DNA of 64,000 bases from Candidatus Eisenbacteria bacterium (lineage in GTDB: Bacteria > Eisenbacteria > RBG-16-71-46 > CAIMUX01 > JAHJDP01). The notes below the pieces were generated by a model. The model was not told the origin of the DNA and did not search any database. It worked only from the letters and a program-made list of their open reading frames with translations. Where the stretch lies: contig JAHJDP010000087.1 in assembly GCA_018831195.1 (NCBI GenBank), positions 124,001-188,000 on the forward strand, written 5' to 3'. This document shows positions 4,000 through 30,540 of the stretch, piece after piece (within the stretch, counting starts at the first letter, position 1; the number at the start of each line of letters is the position of its first letter). The position numbers and the translations under genes were made by a program.

Positions 4000-4829
4000 T
4001 TTAGTCCTCCCACATCATTATGTTCGTTCGGGAGATCAGGACGGTCTTTGCAAATCATGCACCACTTTCGAAGAAAGGCTATCAGATCATCCGGCGGTCT
4101 CAACCATATCTGCGCCGCGGTCGGCCTTCTTTCCGGGCGGATCAAAATACCCAGCCCGCGGGCTTTCACCGCGCGGAAGGCCTCTTCATCGGTGGCGTCA
4201 TCCCCCAGATAGGCAACCGCCGCGGCATCCTCTTCCTCTTTAATAATCGTTCGCACGGCATCGCCTTTGGTTCTGCCGGGATGCCGCAATTCGATACCGC
4301 CGTCAAAGAGATGAATGTACAATTTGCCCTCGGCGGCGATCTCGGGCCAATCCGCCTCGGCGTTCCTGCGAATCCTGGCTTCACGCTCAGGAGTAAGACC
4401 TCTCCAATGAAGGGCCATACAGCCCGGCTTTTGCTCACAATGTTCAGTTAAGCCCTTTTGTTCGATCCATAACGCCGCTTGTTCGAGGGCCACCATAGCG
4501 CTTTGATCGATCGGATGGAGTTCCCGCCGGCCGTTCGAAATGCGCCGCTCCAAGCCATGGGAGCCCCAAATCTCCGGCGGCGGATCCATCCCCAAAAGCG
4601 GCAGCAGATCATCCACCGCGCGCCCGCTGATGATAACCAGCCGGCACGACGGTTCATTTTGAATGGAGGTCAGCAGACGTGTCACTTCCGGATAAGGGCA
4701 GGCCTTGTCTCTCTCGGTCTGGAAGGGGGCCAATGTCCCATCATAATCCAACAGCAAGATCCGGCGCGGCGCCCTTGTCAGCGTGCGCCAGAAAGAGTTA
4801 AGAAGAGCCTCACCAGGCTCTGAATTCAT
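3996..4829 (-). CDS. otsB: Trehalose-6-phosphate phosphatase (HAD superfamily)
   Basis: OtsB removes the phosphate from trehalose-6-phosphate. The 277-residue protein carries the HAD motifs: 'LLLDYDGTLAPF' near residue 25 (nucleophile and acid Asp), 'LVIISGR', the family 'GSHGLE' box, 'KGDAVRTII' and 'AYLGDDATDEEAFRAV' (metal-binding Asp pair). The length is typical. The start codon overlaps the treT stop by four bases and the stop overlaps the otsA start by four, so the three are almost certainly one translated unit. The short stretch before the first HAD motif contains no extra domain. Confidence 0.94.
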   Translation of the reverse strand: MNSEPGEALLNSFWRTLTRAPRRILLLDYDGTLAPFQTERDKACPYPEVTRLLTSIQNEPSCRLVIISGRAVDDLLPLLGMDPPPEIWGSHGLERRISNGRRELHPIDQSAMVALEQAALWIEQKGLTEHCEQKPGCMALHWRGLTPEREARIRRNAEADWPEIAAEGKLYIHLFDGGIELRHPGRTKGDAVRTIIKEEEDAAAVAYLGDDATDEEAFRAVKARGLGILIRPERRPTAAQIWLRPPDDLIAFLRKWCMICKDRPDLPNEHNDVGGLK

Positions 4830-6079
4830 GCCACCCCCAACTCGATTCGGTCCTCAGTCAGATGCAGGACGGAGTGCATAAGAGAAAGATAATCCCCCAA
4901 ATGTCTTGTGAGCAGGAAGTTTTCACGCACTAACTCTTTCGCTTTGTACCCAATCTTCTCCATCAATCCGCGGTGGTGCAGCAGAAACCGAATCCGCAGC
5001 GCCGCCCCTTCAGGGGTGCGAACCAAATAGCCGGTCCTGTGGTTAACAATCTGAAGCCGGATTCCACCCACATCCCCGCCGATCACCGGTTTACCTTTCC
5101 ACAGGGCCTCCGTCACGGTAAGACCAAATCCCTCTCGCAAGGATTTTTGTAACACAATATCCGAGGCCCGTTGAAATGCATTGATGGTTCGATGCGCATC
5201 CGGCGGCAGGCTGATGATATGAATATTGGGGTCGCCATTGGCTGCATGCTGGACTTCTTCAAGGACGACAGCGCCCTCGGGGTCATCGGATGCGGTCCCC
5301 CCCACCAGAGCGAGCTGGACCGGTGTCATTTCCTTCACGATTTTGTAGGCTTCAATAACGCCCAATGGGTCTTTGAAACGATCAAAACGTGAAACCTGAA
5401 GCAATAATGGTATGTTTGGATCGATCCCGAAACGGGGAAAAATATCGCGGACCTCATCTTCCGGCAACTCAATATTCTTTTCGCTCAGGGCGTCAATGCT
5501 CGGCGGTACGAGAAACTGGGGATGGGGAAGCGGTTGGGCGAATTCCGACAATGAGAATATGCTGGCGCTGTACGGCGCCACTACCGGGCGAAGATACTTC
5601 CAGACGGGCCGGTAAGGCCGGCTCAGATCGATGTGGCATCTCCATATCCAGCGTCCCTCGTGCCGCGGGAAATGCTGGTACAGCCCGGCCGGCTGAGGAT
5701 CGTGAATAAAAACAATATCGGCTTTTGAAAGAATCGGGCGGAGTTTCTCTGCATTCTCGGCATTAACATCTTCATAAGCTTTCAGGTGCTTTGTTGACAA
5801 TCCAACAGGTGTTCCCTGTAAGCCGTTGTGAAAACTCTTTGTGCATTCAAAGAATTCAGGGTTCCCGTCAATCACTTCCCATTGAGCATCCAGGCCCAAG
5901 GATTGTTTAAGAGGAATCATCTTGTTGAGAATTTCCGCAACACCGCCGCCCTCACGCGTCGAATTGACGTGAACGATCTTTAAACCCCGCAGGGGCGCCG
6001 CCAACTGCTGCAAATGCCGGATGACATTGCTTCCCACGATTTCTTCGTATTGCTTCAACGTATCAGGCATTGGCCGCAT
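4826..6079 (-). CDS. treT: Trehalose synthase TreT-like GT4 glycosyltransferase
   Basis: The 417-residue protein matches the TreT family (trehalose glycosyltransferring synthase), which joins NDP-glucose and free glucose directly to trehalose, often reversibly. Visible features are the N-terminal 'VHVNSTREGGGVAEIL' loop, the 'FIHDPQPAGL' acceptor region, the GT4 'LLQVSRFDRFKDPLGVIEAY' segment and the C-terminal 'REGFGLTVTEALWKGKPVIGG' donor-binding E(x7)E motif. The 5' end overlaps the DUF5752 gene by 17 bases and the 3' end overlaps otsB. A single-enzyme route next to the two-step OtsAB route in one operon is unusual. An alternative start three codons in is possible. Confidence 0.9.
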   Translation of the reverse strand: MRPMPDTLKQYEEIVGSNVIRHLQQLAAPLRGLKIVHVNSTREGGGVAEILNKMIPLKQSLGLDAQWEVIDGNPEFFECTKSFHNGLQGTPVGLSTKHLKAYEDVNAENAEKLRPILSKADIVFIHDPQPAGLYQHFPRHEGRWIWRCHIDLSRPYRPVWKYLRPVVAPYSASIFSLSEFAQPLPHPQFLVPPSIDALSEKNIELPEDEVRDIFPRFGIDPNIPLLLQVSRFDRFKDPLGVIEAYKIVKEMTPVQLALVGGTASDDPEGAVVLEEVQHAANGDPNIHIISLPPDAHRTINAFQRASDIVLQKSLREGFGLTVTEALWKGKPVIGGDVGGIRLQIVNHRTGYLVRTPEGAALRIRFLLHHRGLMEKIGYKAKELVRENFLLTRHLGDYLSLMHSVLHLTEDRIELGVA

Positions 6080-6875
6080 TCCTCTCTGTCAATCGCCCGG
6101 CCGCAAAGAAGTCGCCGGTCATCCGGGTCAACTCTTCCCTGAGTTCGGTCAAAGATGAAAAGTATGGATCGATCGCCTGGATTGTTTCACATAGTGGCGC
6201 ATACTCATCACTAAGGTCGGATAACCAAGCACTGAAATCATCGGAACAATTCGGCGTCCGGCGGCGGGCGTCGATAAAATGATAAAAAATGCTGCTTGGA
6301 GAGAGTTGGGGTAGGATTTTCGGCAAATCCTCCGGGGTTTCCACCCTCTGCCCGGTACCAAAGATGATAATCTTCGTCAGAATGAAGTGGAATTGCTGAT
6401 CGGCCCGGTTCCAAGAAAAATCGTGCGTCTCATCAATCCGCATTTCAATGATATCGATCAGCTCTTGGCGCAAAGTTTCCAGACTGGAGAAGTCCGCGGG
6501 GTTGATGACGCTCAACCGCTCCGCGAGCTCTTTGTCATTGAGATGCAGATGGGCCCACGAGGCGAAATCATTGTTGTACTCAGGCTCGTTGTACGTCGGC
6601 CGCAGGAAGCGTCCCCAAAAATGGTAATAGATGCTGGCGCCGCTGACATAGGCAAGCCCTTCTCTAAGCTCTCTCAAGGTCAGCGCGCGGCGCCCGGTGG
6701 CTTGAATCACAAGCTCGCAGTCTCGAATCATAAAGGATCGGTCGCTATCCTTCTTTGGGGGTGCTTTCTTGGCGGGCGCTTCCGGAAGGCACGGTTTCCG
6801 GGTCACACCCTGCGCCGGATCTCCTTCGGTCCCTGCTTCTTCCCTCCCTGGATACAACCGTTCATCATCTATCAT
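6063..6875 (-). CDS. DUF5752 family protein, first gene of the trehalose operon
   Basis: The 270-residue protein has a charged Lys/Pro-rich N-terminus (about 1-45) followed by two similar halves. Each half contains 'SGASIYYHF' or 'SPSSIFYHF' and then 'NDFASWA' or 'DDFSAWL' (about 80-115 and 190-215), which suggests an internal duplication. This is the pattern of the DUF5752 family, which commonly sits beside trehalose synthase genes. No catalytic motif is recognisable, and a regulatory or scaffold role for TreT is only a guess. No signal peptide is present. A GAGGAT ribosome site lies about six bases before the ATG. It overlaps treT, so it is co-expressed with the trehalose enzymes. Confidence 0.8.
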   Translation of the reverse strand: MIDDERLYPGREEAGTEGDPAQGVTRKPCLPEAPAKKAPPKKDSDRSFMIRDCELVIQATGRRALTLRELREGLAYVSGASIYYHFWGRFLRPTYNEPEYNNDFASWAHLHLNDKELAERLSVINPADFSSLETLRQELIDIIEMRIDETHDFSWNRADQQFHFILTKIIIFGTGQRVETPEDLPKILPQLSPSSIFYHFIDARRRTPNCSDDFSAWLSDLSDEYAPLCETIQAIDPYFSSLTELREELTRMTGDFFAAGRLTERNAANA

Positions 6876-9529: not shown

Positions 9530-11956
9530 CTAATCGATCCTCACTTTCAGCCGCTGCGCCAGCAATCGGAACGTCTCGGTCCATTGCCGGGCCCAGGCGT
9601 TCCCGCTCTCGGCGGTCTCTGCGATCTGGGTGTAGTGCGATCCAAATATCTCGTAACAGACAATCTGTGGATAGACCGTATCGACATGGACGGGGAGCTT
9701 GTCCAACAGGCGCGTCCCGGCCTCCAGTCGCGCCAGTTGACGCGTATCCAATGGCTTGCTCCGAAGCTCATGGGCCAGTCTCTTCAAGCTATCCCGCAGG
9801 GTGAGGGCCATTTCATCTTTGTCCAGCTCAACGCCCGCCGCACCGGCTTCATCCCATAGTGACTGAAAACGATCCGCATCCGGTTCATCGCTTGCGAGTG
9901 TTTCATGTACAAGTTGATCGAGCGCAATCCCGGCGGCGGCTTGCAGGCGCCGTGGGCCCGGCAAACCGAGGTTGGCCAGCATCCGCATAAGAGGCGCGTT
10001 GCGTTCATAGATTTGCCGGTAGCTGGCGTCGGCCTCCAACAATGACGCCTGCAGGATCTTGTCGAGGATCCGGCGCTGTTCCTCAAGAAAAAGGGATTTG
10101 ATCGAATAGGTCCGCGATTCAAAATACCGGTCGACAAGACGCATCACCTGTGGGTAATCGGCGCTGGAAAATGCCGAGGAGAGCTCCCCGGAAGCCGTGC
10201 TCCATTTCTCCTCATCATCAAAGCGGCGGACGCCGGCATTGAGGTTTTGATCCCCCAAATGGAAGACGGCGAAATTCAATCCGGCTGATTCCAGCGTCAC
10301 ATTCGATGTCACCTCCATGGCGCCCAAGTCCAGCCGGGCCCTTCCCGCTTCGGTCGATTTCAGGGATTTCCGGGCCGTTGTATAACAATAGATCCGGTTT
10401 TCCTCGTCATCTTCCCCGAAGAGATGGGCGATCGCCGCATGCGCTCCCACTTGTTCGAGGTCGACAACCGCCGGAACAACATGCTTCATGTAAAGGGCGC
10501 GTCCGTTTCCCTCCAGCGGATCATTGCTGGATACCGACGAGAAACGCTTCAAGAACTCCTCTTCCAGATCAAGGCCAAGCGCTTCCCGCGCCAATTGGAT
10601 GACCCGTCCCGCATATTGAATGATTTGGATTGTCTCAATCCCGGATGGATCGGCAAAGAACCACCCGCAACTTGTGTACATCAACATCGCATGACGCTGA
10701 AGTTCCATCATCCTGAGAGCTTTTACGATTTCGCTCTGCTGCAGCGGGCGCGCCGCCTGCTCCGCGATGAATGCTTCCGGTTTGACCCGCTGCTGTTTGA
10801 GGAGTACCTCGATATAACTGTCCCGCGCCGCCCAGGGATCCTTGAAGATCTCGCGGCCTTTGTCTTCAAAGGCGGGCGCCACGGTATCCCGCAGCCAATC
10901 CAGGGACTCGCGCAGCGGTGTGCGCCAAGCCTGGTTCCATCCCGCCCGCGAACCGACCTCACAACCACAATTACTGCGCCAGCGCTCAATCCCATGGCTG
11001 CAGCTCCATGAGGTGTCTTCCTGTATTTCAACTTCGTATTCAGGCGGAAATTTTTCCAGATACTCGCCGTAATTTGTTAAACGAATTTGGCCGCGTGACG
11101 TGATTTTCTGAAGCGCATAGGCCAACGCCATCTCGCCGAACCGATGATGATGACCATAACTCTCGCCGTCAGTGGCAATGTGGACCAGCTGGGCATGCCG
11201 TCGCTGATCGGAAAATCCGTCTTGGAGGCGGCGGGCGAAGTTCTCGCCCGAAGAGAGCAGCCCTTCAAAGGCGATCGCCTTCGCAATCGGGCCGTCGTAG
11301 AAAAAGAGACTCATCGTGCGGCCGGAGGGAAGTTTGACGAGATAGGCCCTGGTCGGATCGATCTTCTGTCCGTTCACTTCGGTCCACGCATCGCTATCGA
11401 GAGGCCGGACGCGGCGGGCCTGATGGGGCGCCAGGATGGCAAAACGCATCCCGAACTCCGCCATGATGTCCAACGACTCCAGATCGACGGCGGTTTCCGG
11501 TAGCCACATCCCCTCCGGCTCCCGGCCGAAACGGGATTCAAAATCCCTGCGCCCCCAAATAACCTGCGTCCGCTTGTCGCGTGTATTGGCCAATGGAAGA
11601 ATGATGTGGTTATAGGCCTGAGCGATCGCGTTACCGTGGCCGGAGTACACCCGCCGGCTGACGTCGTCGGCTTCCCGAAGCCGTGGCGCCAGCTCGGGCC
11701 GCCTCCTCTCCATCCAAGAGAGCAATGTTGGGCCGAAATTGAAGCTGATACGGGAATAATTGTTAACGATGGTAACGAGGCGTTCTTCATCGTCGAGAAT
11801 GCGGGCCATCGTGTTCGGGATATAACATTCTTCGGTGATGCGGTCGTTCCAATCATGATATGGGGCGGCCGAACCCTGTATTTCAACCGCTTCAAGCCAG
11901 GGATTCTCCCGGGGCGGTTGATAAAAATGCCCATGCACGCAGAGAAAACGCTCCAT
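9530..11956 (-). CDS. Glycoside hydrolase family 57 protein with DUF3536 region
   Basis: The 808-residue protein begins with the GH57 hallmark 'CVHGHFYQPPRENPWL'. It continues with 'GMWLPETAVD' (probable nucleophile Glu near residue 154) and 'HIATDGESYGHHHRFGE' (probable acid Asp near residue 260). The C-terminal half matches the DUF3536 region that accompanies this GH57 subgroup. GH57 enzymes are retaining alpha-glucan enzymes (amylases, branching enzymes, 4-alpha-glucanotransferases); the activity of this subgroup is not certain. It has no signal peptide, so it is cytoplasmic. It follows glgB by 17 bp in the malQ-glgB-GH57 operon, so a role in glycogen or maltodextrin turnover is likely. 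Confidence 0.9.
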   Translation of the reverse strand: MERFLCVHGHFYQPPRENPWLEAVEIQGSAAPYHDWNDRITEECYIPNTMARILDDEERLVTIVNNYSRISFNFGPTLLSWMERRRPELAPRLREADDVSRRVYSGHGNAIAQAYNHIILPLANTRDKRTQVIWGRRDFESRFGREPEGMWLPETAVDLESLDIMAEFGMRFAILAPHQARRVRPLDSDAWTEVNGQKIDPTRAYLVKLPSGRTMSLFFYDGPIAKAIAFEGLLSSGENFARRLQDGFSDQRRHAQLVHIATDGESYGHHHRFGEMALAYALQKITSRGQIRLTNYGEYLEKFPPEYEVEIQEDTSWSCSHGIERWRSNCGCEVGSRAGWNQAWRTPLRESLDWLRDTVAPAFEDKGREIFKDPWAARDSYIEVLLKQQRVKPEAFIAEQAARPLQQSEIVKALRMMELQRHAMLMYTSCGWFFADPSGIETIQIIQYAGRVIQLAREALGLDLEEEFLKRFSSVSSNDPLEGNGRALYMKHVVPAVVDLEQVGAHAAIAHLFGEDDEENRIYCYTTARKSLKSTEAGRARLDLGAMEVTSNVTLESAGLNFAVFHLGDQNLNAGVRRFDDEEKWSTASGELSSAFSSADYPQVMRLVDRYFESRTYSIKSLFLEEQRRILDKILQASLLEADASYRQIYERNAPLMRMLANLGLPGPRRLQAAAGIALDQLVHETLASDEPDADRFQSLWDEAGAAGVELDKDEMALTLRDSLKRLAHELRSKPLDTRQLARLEAGTRLLDKLPVHVDTVYPQIVCYEIFGSHYTQIAETAESGNAWARQWTETFRLLAQRLKVRID

Positions 11957-13886: not shown

Positions 13887-15998
13887 TTATTCTCCTTCGC
13901 TCCCGCTCCGCAGCCTGTTTATATCCCGCAATATTTCAACCATACCACTATTTTCCGCGGCCTCCTCCAATGAGAGTCGCATTTTTTGGCGCCAATTGGG
14001 ACGTTCATAAGAACCGGTCCCTGGAATGTTTTGCTGCGCTATCTCACCCCAAAGATCCTCCAGCGTTACCTGCACGGCTTTGACGGGATCGGCCGCCATA
14101 ACCCGCAGACAGGCGGCGAGCACCGCGCCGGCGCCATCACCATCCGCCAGCAAACCCCGGCGCCGGAAAGACTCCATCAGCGCCGCCTTGACCCGCTCCC
14201 GGTGTCCCCGTTCCCGTCCCGCTTCCTCATCATCCAGCAACTTTAACTCGATCCGCAGATCAATGTCGCGCCCCTCCCACCACCCGGCGAAGGTCGCCGT
14301 ATCGTGCGTGTTCAATCCGACGACACTATTTGGGGGCGTCGGCGAAATCGCATGTGCCGGATCCGCATTCATCTGAAACGGCAGTACGGCGCAACGATAG
14401 ATGCCGTGCCGCTCCATCGATTCGCGCACCGCGCCGGGTACCGTTCCCAAATCCTCTCCAATGATAAGGGTCCGGCTGCGATGAGATTCTATACAAAGGA
14501 TCGCGTAGAGTTCATTCGCAGGATAACGAACATAGATCCCTTGCGTCGCATCGGCGCCGCGTGGAACCCAGTAGAGGCGATGGAGACCCATGACATGATC
14601 GATCCGCGCCATCCCCGCCGGACGGAAGATATGCCGCACCGCATTGATAAAGTAGCGGTGTCCCTCTTCGCGAATCACCTGCGGATGCAGCGGCGGAAAC
14701 CCCCAATTCTGGCCGCCGCGGAAAAAATCATCCGGCGGCGCGCCGCCCGCGGCATCCCACACAAAAAGATTCTGATGCCGCCACGCATCAAACCCATCGG
14801 GATGAACGCCCAATGGGATATCCAAGTAGAGCGCCGCGGAACTCTCCTCGGTGAGGCGATCCAATTGCCGCTGCAGTGAATATTGTACATAGAGATGATA
14901 ATCGCGTGCGAAGTCGCTGCCCTCGTCATGATCGAGCGCGCCTTGTTTCTGGCGGCTCGGCCAAAGGTGCCACGTTTCATTCCGCAACTCGAACATGGAC
15001 CGGAAGCGGGCATAATCCCAGGCGGCGGGCTTGCCTCTCAGATAGGATTGAAAGGCGGGCCGTTCACCCTCGCCCGAGTGAAAAAAGGTCCGCGCCAGGG
15101 GCTCCAACACCTTGCGCTTCAGCTCCATGAGTCGTTTGAAGTCGACATGGCCTGCGGATCGCAGCTCTTCCACGCTTTTCCGAAAATCCAAAGAGGCGAC
15201 CTGCTGTTGGGCCTCCGGCGCCGCCTCGAACTCGGGCAGGGCGGCCGGGTCGAGATAGATCTCATTCCAGAAGAGACGGCTCACCGGCATATAGGGGCTT
15301 GGCTCGAAAGGCTGATCGAGGAAGGCGGGGAAGAGGGGCAGGGTCCCGACGAAATCGCCGCCCAAGGACTCGGTCCACTTCAAAAGGTGTCGAAGATCCG
15401 ACAGGTCACCGGCCCCCCAATCCCTTTTCGATCGGAGCGCGTAAAGGGGGGCGAAGAGGCCCCAAATTTTGGGGTCCGATTCCGGATCGGGTTGATAGGC
15501 GCGGCGGGGCGCATGGATGATCAACGACGTGACCGTTGTCCCGCCAACCTCAAGGGATAGATGATGATAGCCGTATGGAAGTTTCCCCGGCGGACGCCAA
15601 CGACAAGCGCAAAAGCGCTCCCCATCGATCGTGCTCTCCTCCAGGATCTCCAGATCTTCACGACGGATGGGCTGGGTCGTCTCCGCGCCGTTCTCCTGCC
15701 GGATACATCCTTCGAGGGCCGCATCTCCTCTACCCACCGGCAGCCGGATAACGATCGATCCCCGGCCGCGGAGAACGGTCACCGGCTCCAGGGGTTTCCG
15801 CCAGAGCGCCACCTCGTACTGCCGAATCGCATGGGCCGCATCACTCATCCCGCGGATCGGCGCGCCCAGGGCGCGGAGGATCTGAATGAGAAACTCCGGT
15901 TCGGCCGACCTTCGGTTGCCATAAGTGTCTTGATAGGCCGTGCGCACACCATAAAGGGAGGCGAGCCGCTGCAAATCACGCGATGTTGGTGGTGTCAT
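13887..15998 (-). CDS. malQ: 4-alpha-glucanotransferase (GH77)
   Basis: MalQ disproportionates maltodextrins in the cytoplasm. The 703-residue protein has the larger bacterial architecture, with an N-terminal beta-rich domain (about 1-165) before the GH77 barrel. The motifs seen are 'WGAGDLSDL', '[16 protein letters not shown]', '[19 protein letters not shown]', '[19 protein letters not shown]' (nucleophile Asp), '[11 protein letters not shown]' (acid Glu) and '[13 protein letters not shown]' (third Asp). It is the first gene of malQ-glgB-GH57. The upstream gap to the divergent S9 peptidase (about 210 bp) holds an inverted repeat that could be an operator. Confidence 0.95.
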
Positions 15999-22604: not shown

Positions 22605-23537
22605 CTAGTTGTTGTCCTGAAAGACCCAAGTGGAGAGATAGCGTTCGCCCGTATCGGGAAGAATCACGACAATCAGCTTACCCTTGTTCTCTTTGCGCCG
22701 CGCGACTTCCAGCGCCGCATGCGTCGCCGCGCCGCTGGAGATACCGGCAAGAATGCCTTCTTCTTTCGCCAAACGCCGGGTGGCCTCACCGGCCTGCGCA
22801 TTCGAAACCTTTACAATATCGTCGATTTGTTTAATATCCAAAACCTTGGGGATAAAACCCGCGCCGATCCCCTGTATCTTATGCGGTCCGGGCGCGCCGC
22901 CGGAAAGAACCGGCGAATCCTCGGGCTCGACCGCCACGATCTGAACTTCCGGCTTCTCCTGCTTGATCCGCTGTGAAACCCCGGTCAGGGTGCCGCCGGT
23001 GCCGACACCGCAGACGACGATATCTACTTGGCCGTCGGTATCGCGTAGAATTTCGAGGGCCGTCGTCTCGCGATGAATAAGTGGATTGGCGGGATTCTCA
23101 AATTGATTCGGCATAAAAGCATCGTCACGCGAGGCAACCAGCTCCTCAGCCTTCGCCACCGCGCCCTTCATCCCCTCGGCGCCCGGGGTCAGCACCAGTT
23201 CGGCTCCGAGCACCGTCATCATATGGCGCCGCTCGACACTCATCGTATCGGGCATGACCAGGATCGCATGGTACCCTTTCGCGGCGGCGATAAAAGAAAG
23301 GGCGATGCCGGTATTACCGCTGGTCGGCTCTATGATGGTCATTCCCGGCCTGAGCGACCCATCCTTCTCCGCCTCTTGAATCAGGGAAAGGCCCAAGCGG
23401 TCCTTAATGCTGGAGAGAGGATTGAAGGATTCCAACTTCGCTGCAATACGGGCCTCGCAATCTTCCGCTATTTGATTCAGATAAACCATTGGAGTGTTCC
23501 CAATGAGTTCTGTTATATTCGTAGCAATCCGGCCCAT
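22605..23537 (-). CDS. cysK: Cysteine synthase (O-acetylserine sulfhydrylase)
   Basis: The enzyme makes cysteine from O-acetylserine and sulfide using pyridoxal phosphate. The start is placed at the ATG giving '[20 protein letters not shown]', preceded by an exact GAGGAGG; an upstream ATG is less suited. The 310-residue protein has the PLP lysine in '[16 protein letters not shown]', the '[12 protein letters not shown]' substrate loop, '[16 protein letters not shown]' (phosphate loop) and the late '[16 protein letters not shown]'. The length is that of CysK. It is divergent from an Rrf2-type regulator, and the inverted repeat between them suggests control by sulfur or cysteine status, as for CymR. 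Confidence 0.95.
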
Positions 23538-23579
23538 GTTTCGACCTCCTCTGGTTATTAGCGATCTTGAAAGCGACAT

Positions 23580-23600
23580 GTAGGAGTAATAATATCCTAC
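23580..23600. promoter_or_regulatory. Perfect inverted repeat between cysK and the Rrf2 regulator
   Basis: GTAGGA and TCCTAC are separated by nine AT-rich bases, centred in the 95 bp divergent gap, 43 bp from the cysK start and 33 bp from the regulator start. It is the best candidate operator for the Rrf2 protein encoded next door, acting on both genes. Binding itself is inference. Confidence 0.6.
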
Positions 23601-23632
23601 TCAAACACTGGGTTCAATAGGAAAAGGGCTTC

Positions 23633-24067
23633 ATGAGAATTTCAACAAGAACGCGATACGGATTCCGAGCCTTGGCCGAACTGGCAAAGGGCTACCCGAA
23701 TATCCCCATATCATTGAAGCAGATCTCGACCAACCAGAATATTTCGCTAAAATATCTTGAGCAAGTCATTGCGACACTTAAAGCTGCCGGCATCGTCCGG
23801 GCCGTCCGGGGCAACAACGGTGGGTATCTCCTCACCAGGCCACCCGCACAGATGACGCTCAAGGATCCCTTTCTGGCCCTGGAGGGAACCCCGATTCTCC
23901 TCAGTTGTTTGGACGAACCGGACCATTGTTCCACTCAGGTAATCTGCTCCACCCGTGTAACTTGGGAGAATATAGAGAAGGCTATCCTGGGAGTCCTCGA
24001 CTCGACGACCATTGAGGATCTCCGCCAACAGAGTCTTCAACCGGAATCGCCCGACTACACCATATAG
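23633..24067 (+). CDS. Rrf2 family transcriptional regulator (CymR/IscR-like)
   Basis: The 144-residue protein has the Rrf2 winged helix-turn-helix: 'RISTRTRYGFRALAELA', the recognition region 'ISLKYLEQVIATLKAAGIVRAVRGNNGGYLL' and a dimerisation helix in the second half ('TWENIEKAILGVLDSTTIEDL'). There are three cysteines (in 'LLSCLDEPDHCSTQVICS'), spaced like the iron-sulfur ligands of IscR-type members but not identical to them. Either cluster sensing or a CymR-type interaction with CysK is possible. The divergent cysK neighbour favours control of cysteine synthesis. Confidence 0.9.
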   Translation: MRISTRTRYGFRALAELAKGYPNIPISLKQISTNQNISLKYLEQVIATLKAAGIVRAVRGNNGGYLLTRPPAQMTLKDPFLALEGTPILLSCLDEPDHCSTQVICSTRVTWENIEKAILGVLDSTTIEDLRQQSLQPESPDYTI

Positions 24068-24340: not shown

Positions 24341-24808
24341 ATGAAAAGATTCAACCAACTGGCCGGACTCACTATGGTTCTAGCCCTCGGGCTGTTGTTG
24401 CTGACGGCGACAGGCGCGTTTGCGGGAGACAAGGCAACGTGCGGATCAAAATCATCGTGTAGCTCCAAAACACAGGCGGCCGGCGACTCAACCTGCACCC
24501 AAGCGCAGAAGGCCGACGCAGAAATGACCCTCTGCGCCCACTGTGGTGAGATCGCGGGCGGCGAGAAGTGCTGCAAGGCCGAGGGTCGTGAAAAGTGTGA
24601 GGCCTGCGGCAAGTTCAAGGGCTCGCCCGGCTGCTGCAACCTCCCTAAGGATGCCGAAGGCACCGTATCGCTCTGTTCCCATTGTGGCGAGATCGCGGGC
24701 GGCGAGAAGTGCTGCAAAGCTGAGGGTCGCGAAAAGTGCGATAGCTGCGGCAAGTTCAAGGGCTCACCCGGCTGCTGCGCCGGCGCCCCGGCAAAAGAGA
24801 AGGTCTAG
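24341..24808 (+). CDS. Secreted cysteine-rich protein with two 35-residue CxxC/CC repeats
   Basis: The start is placed at the ATG with an AAGGAGA site. The upstream in-frame extension has no ribosome site. The 155-residue protein has a clean signal peptide ending 'TGAFAGD' near residue 28. It then has a Cys/Ser/Lys-rich segment and two nearly identical 35-residue units, residues 65-99 and 112-146. Each unit reads CX2C-X8-CC-X7-CX2C-X8-CC with the shared 'GEIAGGEKCC' and 'CGKFKGSPGCC' phrases, giving eight cysteines per unit. The CxHC and CxxC knuckles suggest metal (zinc, iron or copper) binding or a disulfide-rich domain. The family is not recognised with confidence. It lies downstream of the Rrf2/cysK pair, which supply cysteine. 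Confidence 0.8.
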   Translation: MKRFNQLAGLTMVLALGLLLLTATGAFAGDKATCGSKSSCSSKTQAAGDSTCTQAQKADAEMTLCAHCGEIAGGEKCCKAEGREKCEACGKFKGSPGCCNLPKDAEGTVSLCSHCGEIAGGEKCCKAEGREKCDSCGKFKGSPGCCAGAPAKEKV

Positions 24809-24851
24809 CTGGGATCATCCCGCTGCTCTCCACGGAGAGCGGTTTAAAAAC

Positions 24852-24882
24852 ATCGCCGCTGGAGAAAATCTCCGGCGGCGAT
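24852..24882 (-). terminator. Strong intrinsic terminator between convergent genes
   Basis: A 14-base stem (ATCGCCGCTGGAGA against TCTCCGGCGGCGAT, one G-T pair) closes an AAA loop. Read on the minus strand it is followed by TTTTT, ending the nucleotidyltransferase operon. It probably also stops the cysteine-rich gene on the plus strand. Confidence 0.8.
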
Positions 24883-24915: not shown

Positions 24916-25173
24916 CTACCGGGGCTCGGTCGCTCTGAGCCAAGCCAGGATTTTATTCCGCTCCGCTTCACCAAAGTCCTGTCCGTACATTCTCAGAAAA
25001 AGCATCACATTGATTTCACTCCGACTTCTGATCCCCGTCTTGTCGATGGCCGCCTGAGCTAGTTTCTTTGCCGTGGAAAACATCCGGCAAGCCATCCCCA
25101 GCCGTTCTTCCGCCGACCGCGCCAGCAATTGCCGGTGGAAACGCGCTTGAACCGCCGATGGGGTATCTTTCAT
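24916..25173 (-). CDS. Small helical partner of the upstream nucleotidyltransferase
   Basis: Starting at the ATG that overlaps the stop of the preceding gene (ATGA), the protein has 85 residues. It is predicted all-helical: 'ARFHRQLLARSAEERLGMACRMFSTAKKLAQAAI', then 'SEINVMLFLRMYGQDFGEAERNKIL'. Small proteins with the 'eRl.M...Mf.tA..l' and 'lFlR.YG.dF' pattern often accompany nucleotidyltransferase genes of the AbiEii/MNT kind. No DNA-binding motif is obvious. A toxin-antitoxin or accessory role is inference from the coupling. Confidence 0.7.
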   Translation of the reverse strand: MKDTPSAVQARFHRQLLARSAEERLGMACRMFSTAKKLAQAAIDKTGIRSRSEINVMLFLRMYGQDFGEAERNKILAWLRATEPR

Positions 25174-25721
25174 GGCCGCCGTGCCTCGCCGACCAGTTTC
25201 TGCACGCCGAGTTCCGCCGCCCATCGCTCAATATATTCCCAATCGAGATCCAGACCCGATTGTACGATGGAACGAACATCTTTCCGCTGGGTTTCCGAGT
25301 TTGCCTCCCGCGCCCACACAAGTTTTGACAAAATCAAGTCTTCGGGCGCCACGAAACAGACCGAGACACCCTCGATCTCAAAATGTCGACGCCGTCGAAA
25401 TTCCTCATTCCGATAATCAGTATCTTTGCGAACGATAAAATCAGCCTTGATAATCCATTCATTGTGAATGACGTTGAACATTCCCCGCGTCTTCACCGCA
25501 CCTCGAATGGATTCAAGCTCCACGTAGCAATCCGGCTTGAATAAATCAAAAATGGTTCCTGAATCTTTGGGGTGGCATTCAACAACCAAGTCAATGTCCC
25601 GCGTCATCCTAGGCTGGGCGTACAACGCCAGGGCCATAGATCCTGTGATCATGTACGCGATCCCCGCGGAATCAAGGCGTGTGGCGATGGCTTTTAAAAA
25701 TTCGAGTTGCTCATTCATCAT
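25170..25721 (-). CDS. Nucleotidyltransferase-fold protein (DUF6036/AbiEii-like)
   Basis: The 183-residue protein has the minimal nucleotidyltransferase signature: 'YMITGSMALALYAQ' followed by 'RMTRDIDLVVE' (the GS and DxD metal site, about residues 26-46). Later it has 'VIHNEWIIKADFIVR' (third acid) and 'VAPEDLILSKLVWAREANSETQRKDV', which matches the end of the DUF6036/AbiEii group. Such proteins can be toxins that modify tRNA or proteins, or MNT-type antitoxins. The small helical gene downstream is translationally coupled. No phage or mobility gene is seen nearby. Confidence 0.82.
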   Translation of the reverse strand: MMNEQLEFLKAIATRLDSAGIAYMITGSMALALYAQPRMTRDIDLVVECHPKDSGTIFDLFKPDCYVELESIRGAVKTRGMFNVIHNEWIIKADFIVRKDTDYRNEEFRRRRHFEIEGVSVCFVAPEDLILSKLVWAREANSETQRKDVRSIVQSGLDLDWEYIERWAAELGVQKLVGEARRP

Positions 25722-27175: not shown

Positions 27176-28660
27176 TTACCGGCCATCCTTAAGCCAGACC
27201 TCTTTAAAAATCCGGGCGCGGTCCATCTCCAGCCAATAACGAAGAGCCAGCGCGCGCACGGCGGACCAATAGGCTGGGGTCAGGGCGCCATGCTCGTCGA
27301 TGCACTTCTGGATATCCGCCCGAATTTGAGCAATGACATCGTCTTTGATCTGCAGATCGACAGCCTGCTCACCGTTGCGGAAGGTGGCTCCCGGCCGGCT
27401 TTCCTGCGGATGAACCGAGATCGTGCCCCGGCCCAGCGTGGCGCCGGTGGCCACCTGGAGGCCGTCGGTGAGACAGCTGAGAGGCGGCGTCGATCCGGCG
27501 CAGCTGACAACACTCAGATCATCAAGCCCCCCGGCCAGCAACTCGCGGGCGCGGATGCCCATTTTGGCGCCCAGGATCGAGTAAATGCCCAAGTGACGAT
27601 GCAGCTCATTGGTCAGCAGTATGGTGTTCCATTCCTCTCTTCCATGCCGCGACAAAGTTTCCTCGGCGATGGCGGCGACGTCGGCCCGGAGCTGCTCGGG
27701 TTCCGTGGGGAAGGCGCGCAGATTAACCGTATGGCGGTGCCCATGTTTCATGCTCAAATCTCCAGCGAGAAGGTCAAGATATCGCTGACGGCCCAGCGCG
27801 AGGTCGAAGTGCCATTCCAATCCGGCCCCACTGGCCGCGGGCTGCCAGGCAAAGAGTTCTGGAAAGAGAAGGTCCAGCACAGCCGCCTCGTCCCAACAGC
27901 GGAAGTGTCCGTCTGTAACAAGCGCTTGTACCCTGTCGGAACTGTGGATCGCACACAACAGATCCGACGCGGTCCCTCCAAGACCACAGACGGCATCGGC
28001 CAAATCCTTGTCGTAGCGCAGAAGTTGATCATCCGGGAGCTGCAGGCAGCGAATCCGCAGGCCGGCAGCGAAGACGCGTTTCGCCGATTCCAGATCCCGC
28101 GCCGTGTTCCATGAGGGCTCCGGGCTGTCCGGTGGAGATCCATAGTATTGAACCACGGCGATCCGTTCCGCCAACGACGGGTCGCGGAGGAGAAGATCCG
28201 CCAGATTGCTCAAGGGCCCCAAGCAGATATAAATCACATTGTCCTGTCGGGCCAGCGTCTCCGATAGCAGTTCGAACCCATCCCTGTGTGTTGTGAGGGG
28301 TGTGGTCTCCAACGTCTCGCCGAGGTCGGACCAGCCCATGGATTCGGCCAGGGGACGCCAGGGGGGCGGATCTCCTTCCAGCGCGCGTCCGGCAGCCACG
28401 GGCACCGGGCCCCATCCTACTCGAGACACGATGCGGCGCAGATTCACCGCTCCGGTTTCAGGCGCGCAGGCGCCGTCAGAGGTTATGCCGGCCAGCAGAT
28501 TCACCCCCTCGTACTGGCTCAACAGAACGATCGCCCGGATATCATCCAGAGCCATGTCCGTATCGACGATGATGGGGATTTTTGTCGCCGAATGGGCCAA
28601 GGCCAGGGCGGGCGCGCAGAGGAGGCAGATGGTGACAAGAAATTTCCTGGGTAGATGCAT
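27176..28660 (-). CDS. Exported inosine-uridine preferring nucleoside hydrolase-like protein
   Basis: The start is placed at the ATG encoding a signal peptide 'MHLPRKFLVTICLLCAPALALA', 29 bp after typA; an upstream in-frame extension would overlap typA and bury the signal. The 494-residue protein has the calcium-binding 'IIVDTDMALDDIRAIVLL' motif of nucleoside hydrolases, then 'LLAGITSDGACAPETGAVNL' and 'DNVIYICLGPLSNLADLLLRDP'. It is longer than the usual 310-350 residues; the extra C-terminal part (about 330-494) is unassigned. An exported location suggests salvage or breakdown of extracellular nucleosides. The catalytic HGxxG region is not obvious, so substrate is uncertain. Confidence 0.75.
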   Translation of the reverse strand: MHLPRKFLVTICLLCAPALALAHSATKIPIIVDTDMALDDIRAIVLLSQYEGVNLLAGITSDGACAPETGAVNLRRIVSRVGWGPVPVAAGRALEGDPPPWRPLAESMGWSDLGETLETTPLTTHRDGFELLSETLARQDNVIYICLGPLSNLADLLLRDPSLAERIAVVQYYGSPPDSPEPSWNTARDLESAKRVFAAGLRIRCLQLPDDQLLRYDKDLADAVCGLGGTASDLLCAIHSSDRVQALVTDGHFRCWDEAAVLDLLFPELFAWQPAASGAGLEWHFDLALGRQRYLDLLAGDLSMKHGHRHTVNLRAFPTEPEQLRADVAAIAEETLSRHGREEWNTILLTNELHRHLGIYSILGAKMGIRARELLAGGLDDLSVVSCAGSTPPLSCLTDGLQVATGATLGRGTISVHPQESRPGATFRNGEQAVDLQIKDDVIAQIRADIQKCIDEHGALTPAYWSAVRALALRYWLEMDRARIFKEVWLKDGR

Positions 28661-28689
28661 GAGGACCTCGGACTTCCTTATTTCTACGT

Positions 28690-30540
28690 TCAATCCACCT
28701 CGAGTTTGGCCGATGCCCGCTCGGAGCGTTTGCGGTCGTGCACGTCGAGCAGGGCCTTGCGCATGCGGATGCTGGCCGGGGTCACCTCCACATACTCGTC
28801 CGCGCCCACGTGTTCCAGGCAATCCTCCAGACTCATTTTTGCGGCCGGCGCGACCTTGAGGCTCCGGTCGGAGGCGGCCGCGCGCATATTCGTCAGCTTC
28901 TTGGTCTTTTGGGCATTGACGACGATATCCCCTTCCTTGGGGCTCTCGCCGATCACCTGGCCGATGTAGAGTTTATCCCCCGGCTCGATGAAGAATCGGC
29001 CGCGGCTTTGGAGCGCGTCCAGGGCGAAGGGAACCGCCGGGCCCTGGGCCATGGAGATGATGCTGCCTGTCTGGCGTTGGGGAATGGAGCCTTTGAAATA
29101 CTCGTATTGAAGGAAGCGGTGGTTGAGAACGATCTCCCCCGAGGTGGCCTGCAACATGCGGCTGCGGAAACCGATGAGGCCGCGGCTGGGCACGTGGAAC
29201 TTGATGAGGCTGCGCCCCTCGCGATTCACCATCTGCATCATCTCGGCTCGGCGGGTGCCCAGGTGTTCAATGACCGTGCCGGCGTGTTCGGCCGCCACAT
29301 CGACGGTCAGCACTTCCACGGGCTCGGCTTTTTTCCCATTGATCTCCTTATAGATAACCCGCGGCTGACCGACCATGAATTCGTAGCCTTCCCGCCGCAT
29401 ATTCTCCATTAGAATCGATAAATGCAGGATCCCCCGGCCTGACACCTTGAATTCATCGGGGCTGGATGTGTTTTCCACGCGCAGGGCCATGTCGCGTTCG
29501 GTCTCCTTGAAGAGACGTTCCCGTAAATGGCGGCTCGAGCAGTAGCGCCCTTCCTTCCCGAAGAAGGGACTTGTGTTGACCAAGAAACTCATGGTGAGGG
29601 TGGGCTCATCCATAGCGATCAGCGGCAGGGGATCGGGCTGCAGGGGATCGGCCAGGGTGTCGCCAATTTCCACATCGGCCAGACCCACAACCGCGCAGAT
29701 GTCGCCGCAATCGGCCTGCGCCACCTCGCGGCGGCCCAAACCCTCGAAGAGGAAGAGTTGGGTAATCATGGCGCTGCGCGAGCTGCCGTCCCTCTTGATG
29801 ACGGCGACGGGCTCCCCCACTTTCAGGCAGCCCCGGAAGACGCGCCCGATGCCGATGCGGCCGACGTAATCGCTGTGGTCAAGGGCCGTGCAGAGCATCT
29901 GAACGGGCCCCTCGTTCCTGACCGGCGCCGGTATATGCTCAACGATCATCTCGAGCAGGGGCGTTAGGTCCTTGCGCTCGTCCTTCAACTCGGCGATGGC
30001 CCAGCCATCCCGGCCCGCGGCGTAGACGGTAGGGAACTCAAGCTGCTCGTCATCGGCATCCAGCTCGATAAAGAGATCCAGCACTTCCTCTTGTACTTCC
30101 AGGGGCCTTGACCCCTCGCGGTCTACCTTGTTGATAACGACGATAGGCCGCAGATGCAGTTGCAGCGCCTTCTGAAGGACAAAACGAGTTTGGGGCATGG
30201 GCCCCTCGAAAGCGTCGACCAACAGCAGGACGCCGTCGGCCATCTTCAACACCCGCTCGACCTCGCCGCCGAAATCCGAGTGGCCGGGCGTGTCGATGAT
30301 GTTGATGCGCGTGTCGCCATAGTTCACGGCGATGTTCTTGGAGCGGATGGTAATGCCCCGTTCTCGCTCCAGGTCGTTTGAGTCCAGCATGCGTTCGATC
30401 ACCTCCTGACCCTCTCGGAACAGGTGACACTGCTTCATGATCTCGTCCACGAGGGTGGTCTTGCCGTGATCGACGTGCGCGATAATGGCGATGTTGCGAA
30501 GGTTCGCCGTTGATGAAGGGGATAGATTAGTCAAAGTCAT
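28690..30540 (-). CDS. typA: Ribosome-associated GTPase TypA/BipA
   Basis: TypA is a translational GTPase of the EF-G type that helps ribosome assembly and stress adaptation. The 616-residue length is right. The GTPase motifs are present: '[15 protein letters not shown]', 'ERGITI', '[16 protein letters not shown]', '[12 protein letters not shown]'. The later domains include '[22 protein letters not shown]', '[20 protein letters not shown]' and the family C-terminal 'ERASAKLEV' region. The nucleoside hydrolase gene follows closely and may be co-transcribed. Confidence 0.97.

Follow-up and report, generated by a model that had tools for sequence, protein, structure and literature searches.

What purpose might a bacterium pursue with a small exported protein that is built largely from two nearly identical, cysteine-studded repeats? 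The question is raised by a gene in a stretch of 64,000 nucleotides from Candidatus Eisenbacteria, which is referred to here as the window. The gene (24341..24808, + strand; ATG at 24341, TAG at 24806-24808) encodes a protein of 155 amino acids, P0001, with 19 cysteines, and it is the single gene of this kind in the source genome. The protein begins with a Sec-type signal peptide, MKRFNQLAGLTMVLALGLLLLTATGAFA (residues 1-28; 24341..24424, +), recognised from its sequence (hydrophobic core 2.69) and presumably cleaved between AFA and GDK. The adjoining N-terminal spacer (24425..24529, +) carries three extra cysteines; cysteine-bearing spacers between signal and repeat are also present in the relatives L023, L025, L031 and L037. 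The other 16 of the 19 cysteines are located inside two 35-residue units, CAHCGEIAGGEKCCKAEGREKCEACGKFKGSPGCC and CSHCGEIAGGEKCCKAEGREKCDSCGKFKGSPGCC, both of which follow the pattern C-x2-C-x8-CC-x7-C-x2-C-x8-CC exactly, as a sequence-only reading of the locus had described. Directly after the stop codon, two strong consecutive hairpins (24822-24843 and 24852-24882, +; -45.9 kcal/mol, z -7.4) probably mark the end of the transcript.

The near-identity of the units extends to the DNA: the two copies (24530-24637 and 24671-24778) differ at 12 of 108 bases, an identity of 89%. These differences touch 11 codons, of which eight change silently and three conservatively (A/S, E/D, A/S), indicating constraint on the protein ever since the duplication. 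Unit 1 resembles its sister unit 2 (91%) more closely than it does any unit of another protein (77%), which bears out the earlier proposal of a recent duplication, or else indicates a recent homogenisation; among the two-unit proteins compared, the same pattern holds in only 10 of 37. Could the reading frame nevertheless be spurious, or an artefact of low complexity, as its shortness and cysteine content might suggest? About 60 relatives with an equal export signal and spacing, together with the mostly silent differences between the copies, refute this explanation and leave it with practically no probability. The DNA pattern of the half-motif occurs twice in the window and in none of 100 shuffled versions.

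Comparison with relatives resolves the 35-residue unit into a tandem pair of 14-residue half-modules, C-x2-C-G-x2-K-G-S-x2-C-C, with 6-7 residues between them. The sequence-only reading was thus right about the larger unit, but missed this finer repeat as well as the three spacer cysteines. P0001 comprises four half-modules: 1a (CAHCGEIAGGEKCC; 24533..24574, +), 1b (CEACGKFKGSPGCC; 24596..24637, +), 2a (CSHCGEIAGGEKCC; 24674..24715, +) and 2b (CDSCGKFKGSPGCC; 24737..24778, +), of which 1b and 2b are also retrieved by the DNA pattern scan. Beyond the cysteines, too, the two halves align in register; only 16 of 20,000 column permutations score as well. Among 209 CxxCG-type knuckles, parsed without presupposing the later spacing, the distance from the second cysteine to the CC pair is eight residues in 201 and that between the first two cysteines is two in 198. 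The linkers, on the other hand, vary (6-9 residues from half to half, mostly 8-16 from unit to unit), and the number of half-modules per protein ranges from one (L021) through three (L024, L045 and L076) and five (in some) to seven. The rigid module, the variable linkers and the odd copy numbers point to the half-module as the working unit. In the AlphaFold2 model, computed with 37 two-unit sequences (pLDDT 92 and pTM 0.78 for the two-unit region), the repeat region is devoid of helices, and a bridge around the residue before the first cysteine and the residue six positions on recurs at the equivalent place in all four half-modules, reminiscent of a knuckle hairpin.

A metal-free, disulfide-rich repeat with a structural or surface role, akin to an adhesin, might also be exported, vary in repeat number and show the recent unit duplication seen in the window. 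In the half-module, however, the non-cysteine positions G, K, G and S-P-G are conserved rather than variable, the protein is very short, sorting or adhesin domains are absent, and the association with a regulator, efflux systems and redox enzymes described below is unlike that of adhesins. The adhesin suggested by the sequence-only reading thus finds no support, and we regard such a role as quite improbable.

How widely is the module distributed? A scan of a genome collection with a degenerate DNA pattern (one genome per species, GTDB 220) retrieved 61 stretches, 60 of which are judged real, a lower bound on family size since the scan demanded K-G-x-P-G-C-C; the Roseobacter stretch L054 was discarded as a chance match. 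According to the record titles, the members belong mostly to Planctomycetota and otherwise to Krumholzibacteriota, Lentisphaerota, Neomarinimicrobiota, Sumerlaeota, Cloacimonadota, Chlamydiota, Verrucomicrobia, Armatimonadetes, Muiribacteriota and Nitrospiraceae; the genomes are metagenome bins, and some of these phylum labels may be wrong. Profile searches of three phyla, those of L026 (titled Planctomycetota), L023 (Krumholzibacteriota) and L037 (Neomarinimicrobiota), are positive in 16 of 392, 5 of 80 and 7 of 245 genomes, respectively. In the phylum of the window, clear units are present in one of 47 genomes, namely that of the window itself; a weak match in G002 was left out of this count and another in G020, at a place that does not read as the motif, was set aside. 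The family occurs in scattered genomes, in the manner of an accessory trait or of one acquired by transfer. Searches of plasmids and phages by tblastn returned no homologue, and viral contigs gave no match to a conserved-peptide query; the degenerate DNA pattern picked one true member (L018) and nine chance matches from the viral contigs. L018 (IMG/VR contig IMGVR_UViG_3300006077_000009) carries the member at 14124-14165, where the contig stretch ends, next to large collagen-like tail-type proteins; the copy is almost identical to the planctomycete proteins L024, L045 and L076, and may be either phage-carried or an assembly chimera.

Neither Pfam, NCBIfam nor the PDB holds a family that matches the repeat, and searches of the PDB by sequence and by fold found no relatives. 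A literature search for the string KGSPGCC and related terms, covering openly accessible papers, found no such family described. The family is apparently unnamed.

Export, which the sequence-only reading had proposed for the window protein, is a family-wide property: by a simple regular-expression rule of our own design, as opposed to a trained predictor, all 59 members with a readable N-terminus carry an export signal, and about half of them a lipobox. Four members contain a Tat-like motif (two in L028, one each in L049 and L072), as expected if they were loaded before export. In seven members, the repeats are fused to an N-terminal domain of the type CPxMG...DvxGxRiYvCCxgCxxxxKxDP, which matches the YHS and ATPase-cat_bd families below their curated cut-offs. 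In structural searches with the model of this domain (pLDDT 90), phenol hydroxylase and toluene monooxygenase subunits rank at the top, aligned over the YHS part likewise retrieved by sequence, and a TRASH domain ranks lower; the best match is a YHS-bearing phenol hydroxylase subunit (prob 0.96, though E 0.2). With moderate confidence, based on sequence and model, the fused domain may be assigned as a YHS/TRASH-like metal-binding domain.

The genomic neighbourhood provides a further handle on function. Neighbours within 5 kb were counted in 67 gene regions (four of them without a script-recognised unit) and in 40 control regions that share many source genomes with them (790 and 477 kb, respectively), and family identities were checked on examples; the controls are few and lie at contig starts, and the gene regions are phylogenetically non-independent, so that the following counts (gene versus control regions) indicate association and not exact significance. 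Thioredox_DsbH/DUF255 proteins are found in 12 v 0 regions, in 11 cases directly downstream and co-directional; Rrf2 regulators in 11 v 0, all co-directional, including the window; AhpC/TSA proteins in 9 v 1; RND pumps in 6 v 1; Hcp, flavodiiron proteins and rubrerythrin in 4 v 0 each; and desulfoferrodoxin in 3 v 0. Hemerythrin-like proteins and peroxiredoxins also occur. In three Krumholzibacteriota, the gene is accompanied by an RND pump scoring above the CusA/CzcA cut-off, and a CusB-like adaptor that carries a heavy-metal-binding domain, and in Planctomycetota an SO_0444 Cu/Zn exporter is located nearby. Metal-efflux genes lie close to only a minority of the loci. Many of the genes nearby belong to thiol-redox or O2/NO-defence systems instead of metal systems, and the flanking genes scanned in the window do not include any for metal efflux.

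Several loci have neighbourhoods of their own. In the planctomycetes L132, L136, L144, L146 and L052, genes for Rrf2, a small cupin, the cysteine-repeat protein, DUF255 and Hcp form a cluster, in part of the loci with an HD-domain protein, which is possibly a nitrosative-stress island. Upstream of the cysteine-repeat gene, L078 encodes an ArsC-like low-molecular-weight phosphatase fused to PAS and sigma-54 activator domains (4667-6436), and L140 a protein with a similar start (9635-11374). In the window itself, an inosine-uridine nucleoside hydrolase domain is fused to an FmdE domain (27176-28822, -), an unusual pairing with an apparent internal signal peptide, MHLPRKFLVTICLLCAPALALA; a small ORF (24916-25224, -) overlaps a DUF6036/AbiEii-like nucleotidyltransferase (25170-25721, -), which has the look of a toxin-antitoxin-style pair.

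The prominence of DUF255 invites an explanation without metal: the CxxC and CC pairs might cycle between dithiol and disulfide, with the protein acting as substrate or partner of the adjacent DUF255/DsbH, of thioredoxin or of CcdA, and serving in the envelope as a reductant or as a sink for oxidants. The position of DUF255 and the AhpC/TSA neighbours are in line with this proposal, as are a thioredoxin and a CcdA-type DsbD_TM protein that adjoin L070 and a rhodanese-like sequence, judged as such from sequence, ahead of the half-module of L021. However, the exact four-cysteine spacing and the invariant glycine and lysine resemble a metal knuckle, CcdA-type partners are near only three loci, and most loci, including the window, are devoid of such neighbours. 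We regard thiol-disulfide cycling as unlikely.

What may control the gene? The Rrf2-family regulator of the window (23633..24067, +) shares 24-36% identity with eight other Rrf2 proteins from the neighbourhoods, and Cys92, Cys99 and Cys105 are invariant among them (9 of 9 homologues aligned). In IscR, NsrR and other Rrf2 proteins of the Fe-S type, this three-cysteine set provides the ligands. The window protein scores best with the superfamily model, followed by CymR and IscR, both below the equivalog cut-offs. It is probably the regulator of the region, putatively of the Fe-S type and controlling the cysteine-repeat gene. The cysteine synthase-like PALP enzyme CysK (22605..23579, -) is encoded divergently from rrf2, in an arrangement reminiscent of cysteine-metabolism control; this adjacency is not conserved in the family, as a cysteine-synthase fold is encoded near only one other locus, at 4.9 kb. 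The link to cysK/Rrf2 that the sequence-only reading suggested is thus retained for Rrf2, but not for cysK. A second sulfur-amino-acid context is seen in the Neomarinimicrobiota locus L037 (1210-3836), where MetA-like, O-acetylhomoserine sulfhydrylase-like and Rrf2-like genes precede the cysteine-repeat gene. The palindrome TGTAGGA-N9-TCCTACT (23579..23601) between cysK and rrf2 is a candidate Rrf2 operator; it has no copy upstream of the cysteine-repeat gene, and direct control by Rrf2 is therefore only putative. A comparison of the cysK/rrf2 gap with this upstream region found no shared operator (95 of 500 shuffles score equally), and an Rfam search of the 22-27 kb part of the window returned no match.

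The invariant tetra-cysteine geometry, the YHS/TRASH-like fusions and the metal-efflux neighbours all argue indirectly for a metal-thiolate protein, and we lean slightly towards the reading that P0001 is an exported protein of this type, with approximately one site per half-module, which at times of metal and redox stress buffers thiophilic metal in the envelope or relays it. The metal binding considered by the sequence-only reading thus gains circumstantial backing. The proposed system could operate in the following manner: each half-module would fold as a knuckle hairpin, whose four thiols would hold one metal ion or contribute to a small cluster, so that P0001 would have about four sites and relatives between one and seven. 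After export, which in relatives often yields a lipoprotein, the protein may buffer or chaperone Cu(I), Zn or Fe whenever metal and redox stress coincide, and may either hand the metal to efflux pumps or shield exposed thiols from it. Control of the gene would probably lie with an Rrf2 regulator of the cysteine-ligated Fe-S type. Counting against a metal-thiolate protein are the small share of loci with metal-efflux genes, the absence of such genes among those scanned around the gene in the window, and the many thiol-redox and O2/NO-defence neighbours; in addition, the envelope is often oxidising, and free thiols there would form disulfides.

A more far-reaching proposal, which we consider speculative and rather doubtful, is that the 14-residue module represents a new metal site, minimal and self-contained and below desulforedoxin in size, which is repeated in tandem along exported proteins and lipoproteins and partly loaded before Tat export; together with a three-cysteine Rrf2, DUF255/DsbH and Cu-type efflux, it would constitute an undescribed envelope system for metal and redox stress across little-studied phyla. 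Few metallothionein-like systems are known to be exported, and the phyla that carry the family are almost untested. The family offers a short diagnostic motif, a proposed regulator and proposed partners, and it supplies a recurrent gene partner for DUF255 (Thioredox_DsbH), which is common but of unknown function. The half-module is small enough for peptide synthesis, so that metal identity and stoichiometry are directly testable.

How does the repeat compare with known cysteine-rich modules? Desulforedoxin (PF06397; PDB 1DXG, 1DFX) is likewise a tiny domain, and its ligand order C-x2-C-G ... C-C is common to nearly every half-module. A string of such domains could thus be envisaged, with one Fe(Cys)4 centre per half-module, carrying electrons in the envelope of anaerobes for the reduction of O2, peroxide, superoxide or NO, in keeping with the desulfoferrodoxin, rubrerythrin, flavodiiron, Hcp, hemerythrin-like and peroxiredoxin neighbours. 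Desulforedoxin centre I, however, is CX2CX15CC (PMC3116461), i.e. its CxxC-to-CC spacing is 15 residues as opposed to eight. Moreover, sequence homology is absent: the PF06397 profile matches none of 37 members at E<=0.1, and hhalign of the repeat against desulforedoxin yields a probability of 2.7%. Desulforedoxin and the N-terminal domain of desulfoferrodoxin are not exported tandem bead strings, and the nearby redox enzymes are expected to be mostly cytoplasmic, whereas the cysteine-repeat protein is exported. PF06397 proteins are encoded in some of the neighbourhoods and elsewhere in the genome of the window. Precedent for iron binding by vicinal cysteines comes from the FhuF-type [2Fe-2S] motif, C-C-x10-C-x2-C (PMC8068687), in which one vicinal and one CxxC pair, the same pairs as in the half-module, bind iron; they do so in reverse order and at a single site of a membrane-associated siderophore reductase, unlike in the repeat protein. 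On balance, we regard an electron-carrying iron protein as unlikely.

Bacterial metallothioneins (SmtA/BmtA, PF02069; MymT) resemble the repeat protein in being small, cysteine-dense and plausible buffers of soft metals. Known examples are cytosolic and have other cysteine/histidine patterns, whereas the repeat family exports copies of one fixed module; there is no metallothionein match in Pfam or NCBIfam, PF02069 included. Zinc-ribbon knuckles (Zn_ribbon_3, PF13248) share the CxxCG start, followed about ten residues later by another pair of cysteines, but this pair is CxxC rather than vicinal CC. Weak zinc-ribbon matches occur in 7 of 37 members (best E 8e-4), and the window protein reaches 9.3 bits, below the 27-bit cut-off; the match to a named metallothionein or zinc-ribbon family by which the sequence-only reading would have been refuted was not seen above any curated threshold. 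A zinc-ribbon-like pairing between CxxC motifs of adjacent half-modules is conceivable. The thioredoxin fold was rejected, since only the Zn-ribbon of thioredoxin 2 is among the weak Pfam matches and the model is free of helices. YHS/TRASH, like the domain fused to seven members, is a separate domain and not the repeat itself. In view of the spacing of 8 v 15 and the absent profile homology, the repeat protein is not filed as a desulforedoxin, nor is it filed as a metallothionein or a zinc ribbon. Its interest lies in the exported bead architecture and the recurrent stress neighbourhood.
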